Positions 1 through 9,290 of a DNA stretch of 9,290 nucleotides are shown one piece after another. The notes under the pieces were generated by a model. It had not been told where the DNA came from. It made no database searches and was given only the letters and a program-made list of their open reading frames with translations. The DNA comes from DASVDK01 sp036562265 [NCBI: Thermodesulfobacteriota bacterium]. Lineage in GTDB: Bacteria > DASVDK01. How positions within the stretch are numbered: position 1 is the stretch's first letter; each line of letters begins with the position of its first letter. The stretch lies in NCBI GenBank assembly GCA_036562265.1, contig DATCKS010000167.1, forward strand, positions 1 to 9,290, given 5' to 3'. A program made the translations under genes and the position numbers.

Positions 1-633
1 CGCCCGCCGGACGAACGGCTCGTCGAAGTGCGTGCGAAGCCCCGAGACGCTGATCGCCCCCACGAGCGCACCCGCCGCGTCGAAGACCGGCGCGGCGACG
101 GCCGCCGCGTCCGGATCGCGCTCGCCGTACGACGTGTACACCCCCTTGCGCCGGATCTCGTCGTAGCGGGCGCCCTCGGCCCCGCCGAACGCGAGGAGGA
201 TCCGGCCGCTCGCCCCCTGGTCGATGGGGAGCGAGGTCCCCTCCTCGACGTGGTGGCGCGTGGGGCTCGGGGAGTTGTTCCGGAAGAGGCAGATGCGCCG
301 GTCGCCGTCGCGCACGTAGAAGGCCGCCGTCTGCCCGAGGTCGGCGACGAGCCTCGCCAGCACCGGCCGCACGACGTCGGCCAGGTCGAAGGACCGCTGG
401 TACAGCGTGCCGAGCCGCCAGAGGGTGGGGCCGAGCCTGAAGTACCCCTCGCTGTCGCGCCGCAGGTACCCGAAGCGCTCGAGCGACGCCGCGAGCCGCA
501 GGATCGTGCTCTTGTAGAGCCCGGTCCGCTCCGCGAGCTGGGCGAGCGAGAGGCGGGCGTCGCCTTCGGCGAACGCCTCGAGAACGGACAGCGCGCGCTC
601 GACCGCCTCGACGCCCGGCCGCTCCTCAGGCAT
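1..633 (-). CDS. IclR family transcriptional regulator, C-terminal end cut by window edge
   Basis: Seen: an open frame of 211 codons from an ATG at 633 to the first base of the window, with no stop, so it is partial. IclR-family proteins are usually about 250 residues, so some 40 C-terminal residues are missing. Residues 9-60 form the winged helix-turn-helix, beginning VEAVERALSVLEAF, with a recognition-helix region GLYKSTILRLAASLERFGYL at 38-57. Residues from about 75 onward match the IclR effector-binding domain, including a GASGRILLAF stretch near 140-149 and AGALVGAISVSG near 187-198. The start overlaps the stop of the upstream lactonase gene by 8 bases and no Shine-Dalgarno sequence is visible, which points to translational coupling. 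Known of the family: dimeric regulators that bind palindromes near catabolic promoters and respond to small aromatic or organic acids. Inferred: it controls its own operon, perhaps through the palindromes at 6769-6791. Confidence 0.93.
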   Translation of the reverse strand, partial: MPEERPGVEAVERALSVLEAFAEGDARLSLAQLAERTGLYKSTILRLAASLERFGYLRRDSEGYFRLGPTLWRLGTLYQRSFDLADVVRPVLARLVADLGQTAAFYVRDGDRRICLFRNNSPSPTRHHVEEGTSLPIDQGASGRILLAFGGAEGARYDEIRRKGVYTSYGERDPDAAAVAAPVFDAAGALVGAISVSGLRTHFDEPFVRRA

Positions 634-1549
634 GGGAGAAGAGCCGGCGGCCCGCCACCGGGAGGTCGGCCCGGTAGACCGTCCCCGTCTCCGACTCCGT
701 GATGAAGAGGGTCCGGTACTCCGGCCCGCCGAAGGCGACGTTCGTCGTCGTGAGCCCCTCGGGCACGACGACCCGGTAGGTCGGGTGGCCGAGGCGGTCG
801 AAGACCCAGACGCAGCCGTTGCCGGCGTGGGCCACGCAGAGCCCGCCGTCCTCCGTGAGGGCGAGGCCGTCCGGCCCCGAGAGCCCGCCCGAGAGCTGCA
901 CGAAGAGGCCGACCTTCGCCGTGGAGCCGTCCGGCAGGAGCGGCAGCCGCCAGACGGCGTTGGCCCGGGTGACCGAGACGAAGACGGCCGTCTCGTCGTG
1001 GCTCAGCACGATGCCGTTCGGGCTCGGGACGGTGTCGATCAGGCAGTCGAGACGGCCGGCCGACGAGAGGCGGAAGACCCGTCCCGTGGGATCCTGGAGT
1101 CCGGTCAGGCCCTGGTCGGTGAAGTAGAGATCCCCGTTCGACGCGAAGACGAGGTCGTTCGGCCCCTTGAAGCGCTCCACGCGCCAGCGCTCCACGAGCG
1201 GCGTGAGCGCCCCCCGAACGGGGTCGAGACAGAGGATCCCCTGCTTGTAGTCGGCGACGAGGATCCGGCCGTCACGATGGACGGCGATGCCGTTCGGCTC
1301 GCCGTCGTACTCGGCGACGAGGTCGAACTCCCCCTCCGGCGAGACGCGGAAGATCCGCCCCCAGGGGATGTCGGTGAGGTAGAGGCGGCCTGCACGGTCG
1401 AAGGCCGGCCCCTCGATGAACGAGTGCAGTTCCGCACCCGACTTGTTGGCGTCGGCCCAGGCGCACCGGCGCCCGCGGACGCGGAACCGCTCCGGGAGGC
1501 GCGCGAACGGCTCGGCTTCGATGATGCGCGGCGGCGGGTAGAGGCTCAT
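626..1549 (-). CDS. SMP-30/gluconolactonase family lactonase
   Basis: A 307-residue cytoplasmic protein of the SMP-30/gluconolactonase/LRE (regucalcin) family, a six-bladed beta-propeller that hydrolyses sugar or organic-acid lactones using one divalent metal. All four expected metal ligands can be placed: Glu46 in EGPAF, Asn131 in GPNDL, Asn178 in SPNGI and Asp227 in GPDGLAL. The 85-residue gap between the first two equals that of regucalcin (Glu18, Asn103), and the others are close. Blade repeats such as GRLYLTD, GRILVADY and GDLYFTDQ are visible. No signal peptide is seen. The ATG at 1549 overlaps the permease stop in an ATGA; the same frame stays open far upstream, but that part reads as a shadow of the permease gene. 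Its place between a transporter and a regulator suggests it opens a lactone linked to the imported substrate. The substrate cannot be read from the sequence. Confidence 0.92.
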   Translation of the reverse strand: MSLYPPPRIIEAEPFARLPERFRVRGRRCAWADANKSGAELHSFIEGPAFDRAGRLYLTDIPWGRIFRVSPEGEFDLVAEYDGEPNGIAVHRDGRILVADYKQGILCLDPVRGALTPLVERWRVERFKGPNDLVFASNGDLYFTDQGLTGLQDPTGRVFRLSSAGRLDCLIDTVPSPNGIVLSHDETAVFVSVTRANAVWRLPLLPDGSTAKVGLFVQLSGGLSGPDGLALTEDGGLCVAHAGNGCVWVFDRLGHPTYRVVVPEGLTTTNVAFGGPEYRTLFITESETGTVYRADLPVAGRRLFSHA

Positions 1550-3492
1550 GGAGTCGTCATCCGATCGAGACCGCTCATCGCGGTGAGGCTCCGGCCCCCG
1601 ACGTACCAGCGCCGGCCCAGGATCGCCGCTCCGGCGACCGTGCCGATCGTCGTCGTGAGGGCACCAGGCACGAAGACTAGCGCCGACGCGGCGGCAAGCA
1701 AGCCTCGCTCGAGCCGGGTCAGCCGGCCCCGGAAGTACCCGGTCTGGACGACCGCCAGCATGATCACGGCGGCGGCGAGCGCGGCGAGGCCGAGAACCGC
1801 CCTCGCAAGGTGCGGGCCCGAGAGGTCCTGGAGGAGGAGGTCCGGCTGGTAGACCCACAGGAACGGAAAGAGGAACGCCACGAGGCACAGGCGCACGGCG
1901 ATCAGGGCGATCCGCATCACCGGCTCCTGCGCGATGGCCGCGGCGGCGAACACCGCGAGGGCGACCGGCGGCGTGATGGCCGACATGACGGCGAAGTAGA
2001 AGACGAAGAGGTGGGCCGTCAGCACCGGCAGGCCGAGATCGATCATGGCCGGCCCGGCCACGAAGATCACGAGGAGGTACGACGCCGCCGTCGGCAGCCC
2101 CATGCCGAGGAGGAGCGAGCAGAGGGCCGCCGCGACGAGCGCCAGCGGCAGACTGTTCCGCCCGAGGTCGAGGATCGCCTGGCCGAGCTTGACGCCGAGC
2201 CCCGTGGCCGACACGGCGCCGATCACGATGCCGATGGCGGCGCAGGCGGCCGCTACCGCGACCCCCTCCCGGCCCCCCTCCACGAGCACGTCGATCAGCG
2301 CCCTGGGGCGGAGCCGCGTCTCCGGAAACAGCATCGCGACGGCGACGACGGCGACGAGCGCCCCGAGCCCACAGAGGTCCACCGAGTACCCCGCGAAGAG
2401 CATGCCGAGCAGCACGGCGAACGCGGCGACGATGGTGGTCGCCTGCGCCGCGCGCGCCCGCGTCCAGGGCTCGCGCCGCACGGGGGCGGGGGCGAGACCG
2501 AGCTTCCCCGCCTCGAGCGCCGTGGCGGCCGAGAGGCTGAGGAGGAAGAGGAGCGACGGCGCGACCGCGGCGAGCATGATGTTGCCGTAGGGGATGCCGG
2601 TGATCTCCGCCATGATGAACGCGCCGACCCCCATCACCGGCGGCATGATCTGGCCGACGACGGACGACGACGCCTCGACGGCGCCGGCATAGGCCCGACT
2701 GAAGCCGGCGCCGTGCATCATGTTGATCGTGATCGCCCCGTTGGCGACGACGTTCGCGGGCGCCGAGCCGTTGATCGAGCCGAAAAGGGCGGAGGCGACG
2801 ATGGCGCACTGCGCCGAGCCCGAACGGCGTCCCATCGTGAGCCGCCCGGCGATCCAGTCGAAGAACTCCCCGGCGCCGACGATCCTGAGCGCCGCGCCGA
2901 AGATCACGAAGACGTACACGATCTCGACGACCGAGCCCAGGGCGACGCCGAAGATGCCCGACTGGCTGTAGGCCAGCTCGGCGACCTCGGCAAGCCCGAG
3001 CCCCCGATGCCCGAGGATCCCGGGCAGGATCGGGCCGGCGAGGAGGTAGGCGATGCCGAGGAGGACGACCGAGAGGAGGAGGGGCCCCTCGGCGCGCCGG
3101 GTCGCCTCGAGCACCAGGAGCGTGCCGACCACGTACACGGTGAGGTCGGCGGCGTTCGGGATCCCCTCGCGAAAGGCGGCGATCTCGTGGTGGTGCTCGA
3201 TCATGTAGAGGGCGGTGATCACGCCCGCCGCGGCGAGCGCCGCCGAGAGGGCGACGTCGAGGACGGGCGACACGCGCCGCAGGGGACCGGGACTAAGGGC
3301 GAAGACCGCCCCGAGGACGAGCGCCAGGACGACCTCGTACTGGATCCAGTTGGGATAGCGGCCGGCGAGCGTCGTCCAGACGACGAAGAGCGAGACGGCC
3401 GCCGAGCAGGCGTGACCGACGCCTCGCGCGGCGCGGTCGACCGGGTGGGAGCCGGCGCCGCCGCGGGCACGGGACGGGATCGTCTCGTTCAT
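1546..3492 (-). CDS. TRAP transporter fused permease (DctQ-DctM type)
   Basis: A 648-residue inner-membrane protein in which the small (DctQ-like) and large (DctM-like) TRAP permease subunits are joined, the usual form paired with TAXI receptors. Hydrophobic segments run through most of the length, with a short cytoplasmic N-terminus of about 28 residues. Family signatures are clear: FGSINGSAPANVVANGA at 237-253, ASSSVVGQIMPPVMGVGAF at 274-292 followed by MAEITGIPYG, LLGMGLPTAASYLL at 461-474, and AVMSAITPPVALAVFAAAAI at 501-520. After about residue 550 there is a C-terminal extension with two more hydrophobic stretches, also common in fused permeases. Known of the family: secondary transport driven by a sodium or proton gradient, with substrate delivered by the periplasmic receptor. 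The ATG at 3492 follows a GGGAGGAG Shine-Dalgarno with suitable spacing. It lies 42 bases after the receptor gene and its stop overlaps the next start in an ATGA. Confidence 0.95.
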   Translation of the reverse strand: MNETIPSRARGGAGSHPVDRAARGVGHACSAAVSLFVVWTTLAGRYPNWIQYEVVLALVLGAVFALSPGPLRRVSPVLDVALSAALAAAGVITALYMIEHHHEIAAFREGIPNAADLTVYVVGTLLVLEATRRAEGPLLLSVVLLGIAYLLAGPILPGILGHRGLGLAEVAELAYSQSGIFGVALGSVVEIVYVFVIFGAALRIVGAGEFFDWIAGRLTMGRRSGSAQCAIVASALFGSINGSAPANVVANGAITINMMHGAGFSRAYAGAVEASSSVVGQIMPPVMGVGAFIMAEITGIPYGNIMLAAVAPSLLFLLSLSAATALEAGKLGLAPAPVRREPWTRARAAQATTIVAAFAVLLGMLFAGYSVDLCGLGALVAVVAVAMLFPETRLRPRALIDVLVEGGREGVAVAAACAAIGIVIGAVSATGLGVKLGQAILDLGRNSLPLALVAAALCSLLLGMGLPTAASYLLVIFVAGPAMIDLGLPVLTAHLFVFYFAVMSAITPPVALAVFAAAAIAQEPVMRIALIAVRLCLVAFLFPFLWVYQPDLLLQDLSGPHLARAVLGLAALAAAVIMLAVVQTGYFRGRLTRLERGLLAAASALVFVPGALTTTIGTVAGAAILGRRWYVGGRSLTAMSGLDRMTTP

Positions 3493-3534
3493 CGCGCTCC
3501 TCCCGCGGATCCGCGCGGCGACGCCGGCCCCGCG

Positions 3535-4542
3535 TCAGATGACTTTCTTCTCCTTGAAGTACCTCGCCGCGCCGGGGTGGAGTTCGGCCGACAGGCCCTC
3601 GAGCGCGTTGCGGATGTCGAGGGTACGGAGCGCCGCGCTGGCCCTGCGCACCTCCTCCACGTTCTCCCAGAAGACCTTCGTGATGGTGTACGCGACGTCC
3701 TCGGGCAGGTCCTTGCGGACCATGATCATGAACGGAAAGGTCCAGAACCGGACCGGGTCGTCGGCCTCGATGCGACCGCCGTACGCCTCGGCGAGCGTCC
3801 GGGCCGGAACGGTCCGGTAGACGTAGTTCGCGCCGTTGGTGACGGCCGCGCGGAAGGGCGCGAGCGACTCGGCGTCCGGGGAGATGAAGCGGAGCCTGTG
3901 CGACCGGGACGCGTTGTCGAGCGCGGCCTGGGGGATGCCGCCCCAGACGAGGGTCGCGTCGATCTGGCCGTTGCCGAGCTGATCGAGGGCCGGACCGTAG
4001 TCGAGGTACTGGAGCCGAATCTCGCCCTTCTCGGCGTCGAGACCGTGCACGCGAAGGAGGATCGTGGAGACGTGCCCCGCGTTGCCGCCGGGGCGGCCGA
4101 TGGCGACCGTCTTGCCCTTCAGGTCCGCGAAGCGCCGGATGCCGCTGTCGGCGCGCACCACGTACTGCGCCATGCCGCTGTCCATGGCGAAGAGCACCCG
4201 CATGTCCGTGTAGCGGGCGGACAGCTCGGGAGGATCCTCCTTGTAGCTGCCGGTACGGCCGATGGCATCGAGGTAGTGCGGCGCGCCGATCACGGTGATG
4301 TCGACCTTGCCCTGCGCGAGGCTCCGCATCCCGCGAACGGTCCCGGTCTCGACCGGCGTGATCGTGTACCCGAGGCCGGAGCGCCTGAGGATGTTGGACC
4401 ACGCCGTGGCGAGCTGGAAGTCGTCGCTCGTGAGCGACACGGTCGCCATCACGAGTTCGCGTGCCGCGGCCGGAGCCGGTGACGCGGCCAGGGTCAGGAC
4501 GGTGAGGGTCGCGGCGCCGATCGCCGCAAGCGTTCGCTTCAT
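3535..4542 (-). CDS. TAXI family TRAP transporter solute-binding receptor
   Basis: A 335-residue periplasmic receptor of the TAXI (TRAP-associated extracytoplasmic immunogenic) family. The N-terminus is a Sec signal peptide: MKRT, a hydrophobic core to about residue 20, then SPAPAAA with likely cleavage after Ala27. No lipobox cysteine is present, so the mature protein should be soluble. Family-type stretches include the start of the mature chain, the SLAQGKVDITVIGAP region, the LKGKTVAIGRPGGNAG loop that usually contacts ligand, and the NGQIDATLVWGGIPQAAL segment. Known TAXI receptors bind dicarboxylates and related acids; the ligand here is not readable. The ATG at 4542 is preceded by a strong Shine-Dalgarno, AGGGAGGAG, with GGAGG ending five bases upstream. 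Having its own strong ribosome-binding site, with a hairpin just upstream, fits the need for more receptor than permease. Confidence 0.94.
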   Translation of the reverse strand: MKRTLAAIGAATLTVLTLAASPAPAAARELVMATVSLTSDDFQLATAWSNILRRSGLGYTITPVETGTVRGMRSLAQGKVDITVIGAPHYLDAIGRTGSYKEDPPELSARYTDMRVLFAMDSGMAQYVVRADSGIRRFADLKGKTVAIGRPGGNAGHVSTILLRVHGLDAEKGEIRLQYLDYGPALDQLGNGQIDATLVWGGIPQAALDNASRSHRLRFISPDAESLAPFRAAVTNGANYVYRTVPARTLAEAYGGRIEADDPVRFWTFPFMIMVRKDLPEDVAYTITKVFWENVEEVRRASAALRTLDIRNALEGLSAELHPGAARYFKEKKVI

Positions 4543-4545
4543 GGG

Positions 4546-4554
4546 CTCCTCCCT
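4546..4554 (-). promoter_or_regulatory. Strong Shine-Dalgarno of the TAXI receptor gene
   Basis: Reads AGGGAGGAG on the minus strand, with the GGAGG core five bases before the receptor ATG at 4542. It is the best ribosome-binding site in the catabolic operon along with that of the permease (3497-3504). The enzyme genes start at GTG with poorer, G-rich sites. This fits higher receptor synthesis and fixes the start codon. Confidence 0.8.
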
Positions 4555-4571
4555 GGTCGTGCGTGTGTCGA

Positions 4572-4600
4572 GGGCGAGGGACCGTCAGGTCCCCTCGCCC
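4572..4600 (-). other. Hairpin carrying the CoA-transferase stop codon in its loop
   Basis: Two arms, 4572-4583 and 4588-4600, pair over 12 base pairs (six, one bulged C, six), mostly G-C, with a four-base loop. On the mRNA the loop is TGAC, so the TGA stop of the CoA-transferase gene (4585-4587) sits in it. No run of T follows on the minus strand, so it is not a classical intrinsic terminator. Such stems between an enzyme gene and a receptor gene can block 3'-to-5' decay or partly attenuate transcription. The pairing is directly visible; the role is inferred. No folding energy was computed. Confidence 0.6.
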
Positions 4601-5802
4601 CGCCCCCGGTCGACGCCGAGGACGCCCGTCTCCACGAGTCGGGCCACCTCCTCCGGTGCGTACCCCAGCTCGGCGGCGACCTCGCGGCTGTGCTCGCCCA
4701 CGCGCGGCACGTCGAGCCGCCGCCCGAACCGCCGGCCGTCCATCTCGACCGGAAGGGCCGGCACGCGGGTCGGCCGGCCGTCGGCGAGCGTCACCTCGAC
4801 CATCCCGCCGGGCTGGTTGAGGTGCGGGTCGTCGAAGAGCTCCTCGGGCCTGGTGATCGGGGCGAACGGCAACCCCGCTCGCTCGCAGCGGCGCATCAGC
4901 TCCGCCTTCGTCAGGCGACCGAACACCTCGGCCAGTCGCGGCAGGAACCGGTCGCGGCGCGCGACGCGCTGCGGGTTCGTCGCGAGGTCCGGGTCCGCGG
5001 CGAGGTCGGGGAGGTCGAAGGCCTCGCAGAACTGCCGCCACTGCGTGTCGGTGACCACCCCCACGAAGACCTGCTGGCCGTCGGCGGTGTCGAAGACGTC
5101 GTAGACGGCCCAGGCGGAGACCCGCTTCGGCATCGGCGCGGCCGGCACGCCGGTGACGGCGAACTGGACCATGTGCTGCGCGACCAGGAAGGCGTTGTTC
5201 TCGAAGAGCGCGCTCTTCACTTCCTGCCCCCGGCCGGTCGCGTCCCGCTCGCGCAGCGCGGCGAGCACGGCGATCGCCGCGAACATCCCGCCCATGACGT
5301 CGTTCACCGAGGCCCCGGCCCGGAGCGGCCGGCCCGGCGGGCCGGTCATGTAGGCGAGGCCGCCCATCATCTGCACGACCTCGTCGAGGGCGGTGCGCTG
5401 CTCGTAGGGGCCGGCGAGGAAGCCCTTCAGGGAGCAGTAGACGAGGCGCGGGTTGCTCGCGGCAAGCTCGCGGTAGCCGAGGCCGAGGCGCGCCATCGCC
5501 CCCGGCCGGAAGTTCTCGATCACCACGTCCGCGGCATCGACGAGGCGCCGGACCAGGCGGATGCCGTCGGGGTGCTTGAGGTCGACCGCGAGGCTCCGCT
5601 TGTTGCGGTTGTACGTCGGGAAGAAGCCCGCTCCGGACCCGGTGAGGCGCCGCGTGTTGTCGCCGTCGGGAGGCTCGACCTTGATCACGTCGGCGCCGAG
5701 GTCCGCGAGGATGAGACCGCAGCTCGGCCCCATGATCATGTGGGCGAACTCGACGACGCGGATGCCGGCGAGCGGCAGGCGCGGCCCGTCCACGCGGCTC
5801 AC
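4585..5802 (-). CDS. CaiB/BaiF family (class III) CoA transferase
   Basis: A 405-residue cytoplasmic enzyme of the class III CoA-transferase family (formyl-CoA transferase Frc, CaiB, succinyl-CoA:glutarate/HMG CoA transferase SUGCT). It moves CoA from an acyl-CoA donor to a free carboxylic acid. Seen: LAGIRVVEFAHMIMGPSCG at 11-29, the LADLGADVIKVEPP motif at 32-45, NRNKRSLAVDLKHPDG at 65-80, DVVIENFRPGAMARLGLGY at 92-110, and ASVNDVMGGMFAA with Asp168 at the place of the catalytic Asp169 of Frc. Length is normal for the family. The start is taken as GTG at 5802, because its GTGA overlaps the stop of the upstream lyase gene and a run of G lies just before it. A second GTG three codons later is possible. 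Next to an HMG-CoA lyase family protein it probably makes the lyase substrate; HMG, glutarate, citramalate or itaconate are candidates, but none is proven. Confidence 0.94.
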   Translation of the reverse strand: MSRVDGPRLPLAGIRVVEFAHMIMGPSCGLILADLGADVIKVEPPDGDNTRRLTGSGAGFFPTYNRNKRSLAVDLKHPDGIRLVRRLVDAADVVIENFRPGAMARLGLGYRELAASNPRLVYCSLKGFLAGPYEQRTALDEVVQMMGGLAYMTGPPGRPLRAGASVNDVMGGMFAAIAVLAALRERDATGRGQEVKSALFENNAFLVAQHMVQFAVTGVPAAPMPKRVSAWAVYDVFDTADGQQVFVGVVTDTQWRQFCEAFDLPDLAADPDLATNPQRVARRDRFLPRLAEVFGRLTKAELMRRCERAGLPFAPITRPEELFDDPHLNQPGGMVEVTLADGRPTRVPALPVEMDGRRFGRRLDVPRVGEHSREVAAELGYAPEEVARLVETGVLGVDRGRGEGT

Positions 5803-6746
5803 GTCGTCCCCCCCGCCGCGGCGCGCAGGGCGAACCCCTTGGGCACGCCGACCTTCGCGATGTGGCCGAAGAGGGCGCTTGCCGGGATGGCGCGTTCGAG
5901 GACGCGGCGCGCCTCGAGCAACGCGTCGAGGTCCACGCCGGTGCGCAGGCCCATCGCCTCGAGCATGAAGACCAGGTCCTCCGTGGCGACGTTCCCCGAC
6001 GCCCCGGGCGCGAAGGGGCACCCGCCGAGGCCGGCGAGGGAGCTGTCGAACTCGCGGATCCCCTCGTCGAGCCCCGCGAGGACGTTCGCGAGGCCGAGCC
6101 CGCGCGTATCGTGGAGGTGCAGCGCCGTGAGCCGGTCGCCGATCGCCCCGCGCACGGCGCGCACCACGCGGCGCACCTGGGCCGGGTTGGCGTAGCCGAC
6201 GGTGTCCGCGAGGCTCACGTCGTCGGCGCCGGCCTCCGCGGCCGCCGCGGCCAGCCGCACGACCTCGCCCTCGTCGACCGTCCCCTCGTAACTGCACCCG
6301 AAGACCGTGGAGAGTCCCACGGACACCCGCGGACGGCGCGCCGGCGGGAGGCTGTCTCGCAGCGCCACGATCCGCCGCAACTCGTCGAGTTGCTCGTCGG
6401 GCGCCTTGCGAACGTTCGCCAGGCTGTGGCTTCGGCTCACCGAGATCGTCAGGGTGAGCTTGTGGACGCCCGCCGCCACCGCCCGCTCGGCGCCCTTGAA
6501 GTTCGGCACCAGGGCCGCCACGGTGAGGCCGGGGATGCGGAGCGCCTCGGCCGCCACCGCGTCCGCGTCGGCGAACTGCGGGACGACCTTCGGCGGCACG
6601 AAGGAGCAGACCTCGATCTCGCGCACGCCCGCCGCGGCCTCGGCCGCGATCCAGGCCGTCTTGACCGCCGTCGGGACGACGCGGCCCACGTACTGGAGGC
6701 CGTCTCTCGGCCCCACCTCGCTGATCTGGACGTCTACCCGGCTCAC
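5799..6746 (-). CDS. Hydroxymethylglutaryl-CoA lyase family protein
   Basis: A 315-residue TIM-barrel enzyme of the DRE-TIM/HMGL-like family. HMG-CoA lyase cleaves 3-hydroxy-3-methylglutaryl-CoA to acetyl-CoA and acetoacetate with a divalent metal. The active-site set is complete: Arg14-Asp15 in EVGPRDGLQ, Glu45 in IEVCSFVPPKVVPQ, His210 and His212 in ALHLHDTRGLGLAN, and Cys243 in LAGLGGCPFAPGASGN, the signature loop. The start is set at GTG 6746, with GGGGG nearby as a possible Shine-Dalgarno. A longer in-frame version from GTG 6812 would begin inside the likely promoter and add 22 residues unlike the family. It is the first gene of the operon, and its stop overlaps the CoA-transferase GTG. 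Related lyases act on other 3-hydroxyacyl-CoAs, so HMG-CoA is the default rather than a certain substrate. No targeting peptide is seen. Confidence 0.93.
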   Translation of the reverse strand: MSRVDVQISEVGPRDGLQYVGRVVPTAVKTAWIAAEAAAGVREIEVCSFVPPKVVPQFADADAVAAEALRIPGLTVAALVPNFKGAERAVAAGVHKLTLTISVSRSHSLANVRKAPDEQLDELRRIVALRDSLPPARRPRVSVGLSTVFGCSYEGTVDEGEVVRLAAAAAEAGADDVSLADTVGYANPAQVRRVVRAVRGAIGDRLTALHLHDTRGLGLANVLAGLDEGIREFDSSLAGLGGCPFAPGASGNVATEDLVFMLEAMGLRTGVDLDALLEARRVLERAIPASALFGHIAKVGVPKGFALRAAAGGTT

Positions 6747-6750
6747 GTCG

Positions 6751-6767
6751 CCCCCAGGGAAAGGGGG
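6751..6767 (-). promoter_or_regulatory. Hairpin covering the ribosome-binding site of the lyase gene
   Basis: On the minus strand CCCCC, a seven-base spacer TTTCCCT, then GGGGG, four bases before the GTG start of the lyase gene. The GGGGG is the only Shine-Dalgarno-like element there, and a perfect five-pair G-C stem would hide it. It may lower translation of the first gene of the operon. The pairing is seen; the effect is inferred. Confidence 0.4.
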
Positions 6768-6768
6768 A

Positions 6769-6791
6769 TTCTGTCCAACAGAACTGCGTTC
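6769..6791. promoter_or_regulatory. Overlapping palindromes, candidate operator of the catabolic operon
   Basis: Two perfect inverted repeats overlap. At 6769-6783, TTCTGT-CCA-ACAGAA has six-base arms and a three-base centre. At 6781-6791, GAAC-TGC-GTTC has four-base arms and a three-base centre. Both lie just downstream of the proposed transcription start of the minus-strand operon (about 6796), where a bound repressor would block initiation or early elongation. IclR-family regulators bind short palindromes of this size, and the operon encodes one, so it is the natural candidate. No binding consensus was matched. Confidence 0.5.
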
Positions 6792-6802
6792 CGACAGTCG
6801 CA

Positions 6803-6831
6803 ATGCTCGCACGGCGTCGCGGGCGTGTCAA
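6803..6831 (-). promoter_or_regulatory. Sigma-70 type promoter of the catabolic operon
   Basis: On the minus strand, a perfect -35 box TTGACA (6831-6826), a 17-base spacer, and a -10 box GAGCAT (6808-6803), which keeps the A at its second position and AT at its end. Transcription would start near 6796, leaving about 50 untranslated bases before the lyase GTG at 6746. The weak -10 box suggests help from an activator or low basal strength. No other candidate of this quality was seen ahead of the operon. Confidence 0.55.
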
Positions 6832-7035: not shown

Positions 7036-7350
7036 ATGTACGCGGTCATCAGGAGCGGCGGCAAGCAGTACCGGGTCGCCGAGGGCGAGGTCGTCCGCCT
7101 CGAGAAGCTTCCGGGCAACGTCGGCGACGCCGTCACGCTCTCCGAGGTCCTCATGGTCGGCGAAGGGGACGCCGTCAAGGTCGGCACCCCCATCGTGGCC
7201 GGCGCCAGCGTCTCGGCCGAGATCGTCGAGCAGGACCGCGGCAAGAAGATCGTCGTCGGCAGGAAGAAGCGCCGCAAGGGCTACTCCAAGTTCCGCGGCC
7301 ACCGGCAGTACTACACCGCCGTGCGGATCACGGCGATCCAGGGAGTGTAA
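7036..7350 (+). CDS. rplU: Large ribosomal subunit protein bL21
   Basis: A 104-residue 50S subunit protein that binds 23S rRNA, encoded first in the operon. Seen: the N-terminus [20 protein letters not shown], a central [20 protein letters not shown] segment, and a basic C-terminal part with [25 protein letters not shown] at about 75-99, all standard for bL21. Length is the usual 100-105 residues. The frame stays open far upstream of 7036, but the ATG there gives the exact bL21 N-terminus; a weak GGAG lies about ten bases before it. rpmA begins seven bases after the stop, so the two are co-transcribed as in most bacteria. Nothing unusual is seen in the protein itself. Confidence 0.98.
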
Positions 7351-7357
7351 CGGCACC

Positions 7358-7630
7358 ATGGCTCACAAGAAGGGCGTCGGCAGCAGCCGCAACGGGCGCG
7401 ACTCGATCGGCAGGCGCCTCGGCGTCAAGAAGTTCGGCGGCGAGTTCGTGCGGGCCGGCAACATCATCGTCCGGCAGCGCGGCACGAAGATCCACCCGGG
7501 GCTCAACGTCGGCCTCGGCCGCGACTACACGCTCTTCGCGCTGGTCGACGGGCACGTCGCCTTCCAGCAGGCCGGCAGGGACCGCAAGAAGGTCTCCGTC
7601 ATCCCGGTCGCCCCGGCCGCCACGGCCTAG
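7358..7630 (+). CDS. rpmA: Large ribosomal subunit protein bL27
   Basis: A complete 90-residue bL27, which sits near the peptidyl-transferase centre with its N-terminal tail reaching toward the P-site tRNA. The sequence begins [20 protein letters not shown] directly, with no cleavable N-terminal extension of the Firmicutes kind. The core [20 protein letters not shown] and the [16 protein letters not shown] stretch are typical. A GGGAG at 7341-7345, inside the end of rplU, is a plausible though distant ribosome-binding site. It is followed by a 95-base gap containing a long hairpin before obgE, the only sizeable gap in this operon. Confidence 0.98.
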
Positions 7631-7643
7631 GGCTTCGCAACCG

Positions 7644-7685
7644 GCGGGGTCCGGGCCGGGTGTCGGCGGCCCTCGTGGACCCCGC
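7644..7685 (+). other. Long hairpin between rpmA and obgE
   Basis: Outer arms GCGGGGTCC (7644-7652) and GGACCCCGC (7677-7685) pair perfectly over nine bases. The inner arms GGGCC (7653-7657) and GGCCC (7668-7672) add five more, with a four-base bulge (7673-7676) on one side and a ten-base loop. No T run follows, so a standard intrinsic terminator is unlikely. It could attenuate transcription, mark an RNase cut or protect the upstream ribosomal-protein mRNA, giving less Obg than L21/L27. The stem is seen; the role is inferred. Confidence 0.5.
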
Positions 7686-7725
7686 ACCCCTCCTCCACCT
7701 CGCCCCGGTCGCTCGAGGGGCCTTC

Positions 7726-8781
7726 ATGAAGTTCGTCGACGAGGTCACCGTCACGGTCCGGTCCGGCGCGGGAGGCGCCGGGGCGGTCTCGTTCCGCCGC
7801 GAGGCCAACGTGCCGAAGGGGGGCCCAGACGGCGGTGACGGCGGCCGCGGCGGCGACGTCGTGTTCGAGGCCGACCCCAGCAAGACGACGCTCCTCGACC
7901 TCCAGTACCAGCAGACCTACAGGGCCGCGGACGGCGAACGGGGGCGCGGCAACGAGATGGCGGGCCGCAGCGCCGAGGCCCTCGTCGTCCGCGTGCCGGT
8001 CGGGACGCTGATCCGCGACCCGGAGGACGGCGCCGTCCTCGCCGACCTCGACGCGCCCGGCATGCGCTGGGTGGCGGCGCGCGGCGGGCGCGGCGGCAAG
8101 GGCAACGCCCACTTCAAGTCGGCGCGCCGGCAGGCGCCCCGCTTCGCCCAGCCGGGCGAACCGGGCGAGGAGCGGCGCCTTCGGCTCGAGCTGCGCCTGC
8201 TCGCCGACGTGGGGCTCGTCGGCTTCCCGAACGCCGGCAAGTCGACCCTCATCTCGGCCATCTCGACCGCCCGGCCGAAGGTTGCCGACTATCCCTTCAC
8301 GACCCTCGTGCCGCACCTCGGCGTCGTCCGCGTGGGCGACCGCACGTTCGTCGCGGCCGACATCCCGGGACTCATCGAAGGCGCGGCCGAGGGGGCGGGG
8401 CTCGGGCTGCGCTTCCTCAAGCACGTCGAGCGCTGCCGGCTGCTCCTGCACCTCATCGACCTCGCCGAGCCTTCTGCCGAGCGCTGCCTTGCGCGGTTCG
8501 ACGCGCTGAACGCCGAGCTCGCGAAGTTCGATCCGGCGCTCGCCGCCAAGCCGCAGATCGCCGTCCCGACGAAGCTCGACGTGACCGAGGCGCAGGCCAA
8601 CCTCCCCGCCGTCCGGGCGGCGCTCGAGGCGCGGGGGTACGAGGTGGTCCCGATCTCCGCGGCGACGCGACAGGGGCTCGACGCCCTGCTCGGCGCCGTG
8701 GCGCGGCGGCTCTTCGCCGCGGAGGAGGCGCGCGAAGCCCGGCGCCGCGCGTCGGGGGAGCGGGTGACGTGGCAGCCGTAA
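7726..8781 (+). CDS. obgE: Obg family GTPase (ribosome assembly)
   Basis: A 351-residue Obg/CgtA GTPase, which binds the 50S subunit and acts in its late assembly and in stress control. The glycine-rich Obg fold spans residues 1-158, with FVDEVTVTVRSGAGGAG and KGGPDGGDGGRGGDVVF. The G domain follows: G1 GFPNAGKS at 166-173, switch I YPFTTLVPHLG at 189-199, G3 DIPGLIEGA at 212-220, G4 TKLD at 282-285, and G5 SAA at 311-313. G4 has Thr where NKxD is usual. The chain ends about 40 residues after G5 without a separate OCT domain, as in many shorter Obg proteins. Start chosen at ATG 7726 because GAGGGG lies five bases upstream and the protein then begins MKFVDEV; an in-frame extension to 7660 lacks both. 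The stop overlaps the proB start by one base (TAATG). Confidence 0.97.
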   Translation: MKFVDEVTVTVRSGAGGAGAVSFRREANVPKGGPDGGDGGRGGDVVFEADPSKTTLLDLQYQQTYRAADGERGRGNEMAGRSAEALVVRVPVGTLIRDPEDGAVLADLDAPGMRWVAARGGRGGKGNAHFKSARRQAPRFAQPGEPGEERRLRLELRLLADVGLVGFPNAGKSTLISAISTARPKVADYPFTTLVPHLGVVRVGDRTFVAADIPGLIEGAAEGAGLGLRFLKHVERCRLLLHLIDLAEPSAERCLARFDALNAELAKFDPALAAKPQIAVPTKLDVTEAQANLPAVRAALEARGYEVVPISAATRQGLDALLGAVARRLFAAEEAREARRRASGERVTWQP

Positions 8782-9290
8782 TGGCCGCGGCGGCCGGGCG
8801 GGAGCCGGTCACGCGGGCCCGGCGCCTCGTCGTCAAGCTCGGGACGAGCGTCCTCACGGGCGGCCCGACGACCAGGGGGGCCGGCCTCGACCTCCCCTAC
8901 TTCGCTCGTCTCGCCTCGCAGGTGCAGGCGCTCGCCGCCGGCGGGCGGGAGACCGTCATCGTCTCCTCGGCCGCGATCGCCTGCGGGATGCACGTGCTCG
9001 GCCTCAAGGAGCGGCCGAGGGCGATCCCGATGAAGCAGGCCTGCGCCGCGGTCGGGCAGAGCGGCCTCATGCGCGCCTACGAGGAGGCCTTCGCGCCGCA
9101 CGGCCGCCGCAGTCCCAACGCCGATCTGAACGAGCGAATCGCCGCCGGCATTCTCGCCTGCTTTCCACCAGAGCTATTCGATTCGACTGGCTTGTTCCAC
9201 TCGCTCTGGATGGTCCGTCTTCGCTATGCCACCGAAGAGGCCGAAGGCATGCTCGAGGAACTCATCCGCACGGAGCGGGCTTGCGCAGAG
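8781..9290 (+). CDS. proB: Glutamate 5-kinase, N-terminal part only, with unrelated downstream sequence
   Basis: Begins at ATG 8781, sharing its A with the obgE stop. Residues 14-108 match glutamate 5-kinase, the first enzyme of proline synthesis, which phosphorylates glutamate with ATP: RRLVVKLGTSVLTGG at 14-28 with Lys19, ETVIVSSAAIACGM at 57-70, and IPMKQACAAVGQSGLMRAYEEAF at about 82-104. After HGRR at 107-110, where the family continues with a VxQVLLT-type strand, the sequence becomes unrelated, although the frame stays open for 60 more codons to the window end. The substrate- and ATP-binding residues of the later kinase domain and the PUA domain are absent. The other two forward frames do not restore ProB, so this is not a simple frameshift. 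The motif SSAAI replaces the usual SSGAI. Either a truncated gene or a chimeric sequence end. Confidence 0.85.
   Translation, partial: MAAAAGREPVTRARRLVVKLGTSVLTGGPTTRGAGLDLPYFARLASQVQALAAGGRETVIVSSAAIACGMHVLGLKERPRAIPMKQACAAVGQSGLMRAYEEAFAPHGRRSPNADLNERIAAGILACFPPELFDSTGLFHSLWMVRLRYATEEAEGMLEELIRTERACAE
9111..9290 (+). other. Unrecognised segment of different composition at the right edge
   Basis: From about 9111 the G+C content drops to about 61% (109 of 180 bases by hand count), against about 73% in the 60 bases 9001-9060. Codons ending in A or T (CCA, CTA, ACT, CGT, CTT, GAA, GCA) become frequent. The proB frame remains open and reads as plausible protein, with segments such as AAGILACFPPELFDSTGLF and EEAEGMLEELIRTERACAE, still favouring G/C in third positions, so it may be coding in that frame. 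I do not recognise the family. No inverted repeat, tRNA end or transposase motif marks the boundary. Confidence 0.6.

Follow-up and report, generated by a model that had tools for sequence, protein, structure and literature searches.

A proB reading frame continued by a Pirellulales-type gene fragment at the end of a high-GC bacterial sequence: most likely a contig-end artefact

The window analysed here, a stretch of 9,290 nucleotides, ends in one reading frame that begins as proB and finishes as a piece of an unrelated gene whose relatives were found in the order Pirellulales (Planctomycetota). We regard it as very probable that two organisms have been joined in the window, at a contig end, by a chimeric read, a library molecule or a misassembly. 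The comparisons presented below show directly where the break lies, that the tail but not the body is related to Pirellulales, and that the fusion is absent from the collections searched.

The proB head and the point where it stops

A cluster of genes on the minus strand occupies positions 1-6812 of the window. It comprises an IclR-type regulator (1-633), cut by the window start and scoring below the NCBIfam cut-offs, and, all above their cut-offs, a fused TRAP permease (1546-3492), a TAXI TRAP solute-binding protein (3535-4542) and a hydroxymethylglutaryl-CoA lyase-type gene (5799-6812), before which stands a reading frame that we take from its translation to be a CaiB-type CoA-transferase. 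On the plus strand, the frames at 7038-7630, just upstream of obgE, are presumably rplU- and rpmA-like, as recognised by eye from their translations. The obgE gene itself (7660-8781, plus strand) is intact, lies within the high-GC body and was identified by the NCBIfam profiles NF008955 (E 2.8e-140) and TIGR02729, both above cut-off. Its stop codon is overlapped by the ATG of proB, and the same obgE-proB gene order is present in Paracoccus pFER4. Neither a tRNA nor an Rfam family was found when the window was searched for them.

The 5' part of proB (8781-9110, plus strand) amounts to about 110 of some 370 codons and is defined by two profiles and an alignment to references. In the NCBIfam profile search, TIGR01027 (proB) covered residues 18-114 of the ORF read from 8769, equivalent to profile positions 1-93 of 363 (E 3.5e-25), with a score of 88.9 bits that does not reach the curated cut-off of 186. 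Pfam AA_kinase, above its cut-off, covered residues 19-113 of the same ORF. The N-terminal amino-acid-kinase part of ProB is thereby accounted for, whereas profile positions 94-363 are absent and unrelated sequence stands in their place. Both profiles end at nucleotides 9107-9110, residue 114 ending at 9110. From the profile ends and the alignments the break was placed at about 9108-9111, within a junction interval of 9105-9113.

The reference set consisted of complete ProB proteins from Paracoccus, E. coli and four Pirellulales; the row Pir_L008 represented an incorrect frame, as the longest ORF there is something other than ProB, and was left out of the counts, and the identity counts for the tail in this alignment, scattered by gaps, were not used. 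At the break a strand of the form xQ(I/L/M)(L/V)(L/V)T follows in all six references, the window having HGRR-SPNADLNERIAAG instead; the window sequence at this place is SPNADLNERIAAGILACF. The fit to ProB ends with HGR(R), and the fit to the Pirellulales family starts with the S of SPNADLN. The head is identical to the Paracoccus protein at 47 of 95 residues, to that of E. coli at 44 of 96 and to those of the four Pirellulales at 31-43 of 96, and by itself it does not separate these lineages well. Well upstream of the junction, at 8970-8972, the window has an alanine (VSSAAIACG) where 6/6 references have the glycine of the (S/T)SGAIA-type motif.

The composition changes at the same place. GC content is 76.6% for 8769-9110 and 60.6% for 9111-9290, and among the 9110 windows of 180 bases the five with the lowest GC start at 9103-9110. 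GC at third codon positions (GC3) drops from 0.96 before the break to 0.70 after it; in six body genes, 1539 overlapping windows of 60 codons included no GC3 value of 0.70 or less, the minimum being 0.78. The proB frame stays open through the last base of the window. A blastx search of 9111-9290 against the ProB references gave a best E of 0.38, and no frame matched ProB; a frameshift concealing the rest of ProB was rejected on this result. The initial annotation had described an abrupt loss of ProB similarity near 9110 with the loss of a conserved VxQVLLT-type strand, a fall in GC with more A/T-ending codons, and a continuation that is open in the proB frame and is restored to ProB by no other frame, and each of these observations was borne out.

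The tail and its family in Pirellulales

The same annotation had called the continuation not recognisable, and this did not hold. The 60 residues encoded by 9111-9290 (plus strand, in the proB frame and running off the window end) match the C-terminal part of an uncharacterised Pirellulales protein. When contigs of species genomes were searched with these residues, 199 pattern-match stretches yielded 6 confirmed loci in 5 MAGs, which are named Planctomycetaceae, Pirellulales or Pirellulaceae. An order sample was drawn from the genome of the first of these loci (G001 and L001) and was taken to represent Pirellulales because it contains G002, G003 and G004, named Pirellulales or Pirellulaceae. 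A match to the tail at E <= 0.001 was found in 142 of its 396 genomes (best E 4.5e-22), with 65% identity over 57 residues and 67% over 54 in the two best matches; of the 20 best places, 18 have an alignment starting at the first residue past the break. In DNA comparisons, 9111-9161 shares 86% identity with L004 (51 bases) and 9116-9256 shares 72% with L001 (141 bases). A 55-residue stretch of another family member, L019, used as query matched in 73 of 146 genomes of the order. In a sample of the phylum, for which the share of order members is not given, a tail match occurred in 2 of 199 genomes (G001 and G020), both of them in the order list, and the family was not seen outside Pirellulales in these 199 genomes.

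The family was examined in 26 loci (L001-L006 and L017-L036); L001 and L023 are one gene, which makes 25 genes in all, and L020 is truncated at the 5'-end. In the 25 loci with both frame ends closed, the length from the first possible start is 258-402 residues, and the part matching the tail extends from residue 205-320 to a point 10-47 residues short of the stop. From SPNADLN onwards the tail aligns without gaps over about 50 residues with the 14 family members shown; upstream of the S the window and these 14 diverge, with a gap of three or four residues. The conserved C-terminal motif of the family may be written SPNADLN...LSCF...ELFDSTG..SLW, as exemplified by L019 at 1501-1665. Pfam contained no family for the tail and gave nothing above cut-off for two whole Pirellulales proteins of the family (best E 0.17).

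The tail thus carries the SPNADLN...FDSTG...SLW region from near the C-terminus, with up to 67% identity over the SPNADLN part. It differs from the family in that it has neither the first 205-320 residues nor the stop, only a part of the C-terminal third being present, and in that ProB stands upstream of 9111 where the N-terminal two thirds should be. Sequence comparison shows the tail to be a fragment from the C-terminal third of a gene of Pirellulales type whose function is uncharacterised. Its GC content of 60.6% is close to the mean of 61.0% for the matching DNA in the 26 Pirellulales loci. DNA searches with 9100-9290 returned only short chance matches among plasmids and phages, with E of 2 to 7 in the 20 of 80 plasmid records and 15 of 15 phage records listed, none covering 80% of the query, and tblastn of the tail against plasmids gave five records with E of 4 to 8.

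The lineage of the body and the search for the fusion

The body of the window was compared with Pirellulales through its ObgE. Some match to this protein was present in 57/57 Pirellulales genomes sampled; 54 of them had a match at the level of ObgE (E 1.8e-85 or better) with 46-55% identity, and the remaining three showed weak matches to GTPases only. The four Pirellulales ObgE proteins closest to that of the window are 65-80% identical to one another and 53-55% to the window. Because the window protein stands at 46-55% against the 65-80% found among these four, the body is assigned to a high-GC bacterium from outside Pirellulales. With a mean GC of 73%, the window lies above all 26 Pirellulales loci (51-67%). 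Among plasmids, all 57 records matching the window ObgE did so with less than 60% identity. Pirellulales possess a complete ProB of their own, as found above cut-off in 5/5 genomes.

None of 36 loci joins the two halves in one place. In viral contigs, 9 candidate stretches for the fusion were found and 0 confirmed, and among plasmids 76 records matched the fused ORF, 0 of them with a single place covering 80% of it. With the fused ORF as query, 15 of the 26 tail loci start their alignment at residue 115 or 116, and the other 11 extend 2 to 29 residues upstream of the break, with a gap; three ProB loci (L007-L009) extend 9-10 residues past it. The residue view of this alignment holds plus-strand matches only, and the boundary marked in it is shifted where rows are gapped (e.g. 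L001, L002, L021, L033). The upstream extensions cover a stretch compatible with ProB (GQSxLxxAYEExFAPHG), and those past the break are explained by a chance similarity between DLNER and the DLNDR found in ProB. Since residues 97-114 fit ProB, and given the close DNA identity of 9111-9161 to L004, we read the alignments crossing the break as extension noise.

As the part of the Pirellulales gene that matches the tail begins 205-320 residues into that gene, the break lies in the interior of both of these unrelated genes, and 180 bases of sequence follow it. No SPN-like residues follow HG in the ProB references, and no HGRR-like residues precede SPN in the 14 aligned Pirellulales proteins. Neither family carries the residues of the other at this place, and a long shared word of the kind that leads to a k-mer misjoin therefore looks unlikely, judged from the families rather than from the parent sequences. 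A join without a shared k-mer would point to a chimeric molecule or read in preference to a repeat in the assembly graph.

How the two halves came together

Chimeric contig ends that combine species are a known class of artefact. The window resembles this class in that two lineages are joined inside unrelated genes with a step in GC, and in that a short foreign piece lies at the sequence end in a join seen nowhere else in the collections searched, namely the 36 loci, the viral contigs and the plasmids. The body would derive from the high-GC bacterium and the last 180 bases from a different organism, one related to Pirellulales; both were presumably members of one community. A chimeric read or library molecule, or a misjoin during assembly, would have connected them in the middle of both genes at a contig end; the join would accordingly date from library preparation or assembly, with no cellular event behind it, and the contig probably ends where the window does. 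Several points speak against a chimera: the frame is kept across the join, some alignments cross the break, the ProB head on its own separates the lineages poorly, and an exact source genome was found for neither side. The shared open frame is put down to chance, which would produce it in about one in six cases if strand and phase were random.

Had genuine recombination or insertion in the high-GC organism brought in a fragment of a Pirellulales gene and shortened proB, this would explain why body and tail lie on one sequence with a frame open across the join. Against such an event, which we hold to be most improbable, the fragment is missing the start and the initial 205-320 residues of its gene, has its closest relatives in another lineage, retains the GC of the donor group and sits at the extreme end of the sequence; its matches in plasmids and phages did not exceed chance, the search for mobile elements having covered plasmids, phages, tRNAs and Rfam. 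The outcome that this event would imply, an inter-phylum recombination in which the end of a Pirellulales gene took the place of the proB 3' part, leaving an in-frame fusion in a probable proline auxotroph, is likewise very doubtful. The initial annotation had rated an assembly chimera as at least as likely as recombination, and the evidence favours the chimera more strongly than that, with the tail gene found here in one planctomycete order only and a body that is not of that order.

An open frame would also be expected if the proB of this organism truly went on with the tail sequence as a native, lineage-specific variant. The tail, however, belongs to a different family that has an upstream part of its own, and no ProB in the loci or the plasmid records goes on as the window does. 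Homologues with this same continuation, which the initial annotation had named as the observation that would mark the sequence as native, were looked for in the collections searched and not found, and the chance of a native variant is exceedingly small. The whole window might also come from a member of Pirellulales in which both genes were joined, as the order has proB in 5/5 and ObgE-level matches in 54 of 57 genomes sampled; the distance of the window ObgE from those of the four best-matching Pirellulales and the GC of the window, above that of every locus, make this origin just as hard to credit. A chimera of two organisms is the reading that we retain.

The feature is most likely an artefact of a contig end and not biology. 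Taken at face value, it would be annotated as a truncated proB fusion and would suggest a false inter-phylum gene transfer; the last approximately 180 bases should therefore be trimmed or flagged. The tail nevertheless offers one modest lead, as it points to a so far unnamed family of proteins with frequent occurrence in Pirellulales.
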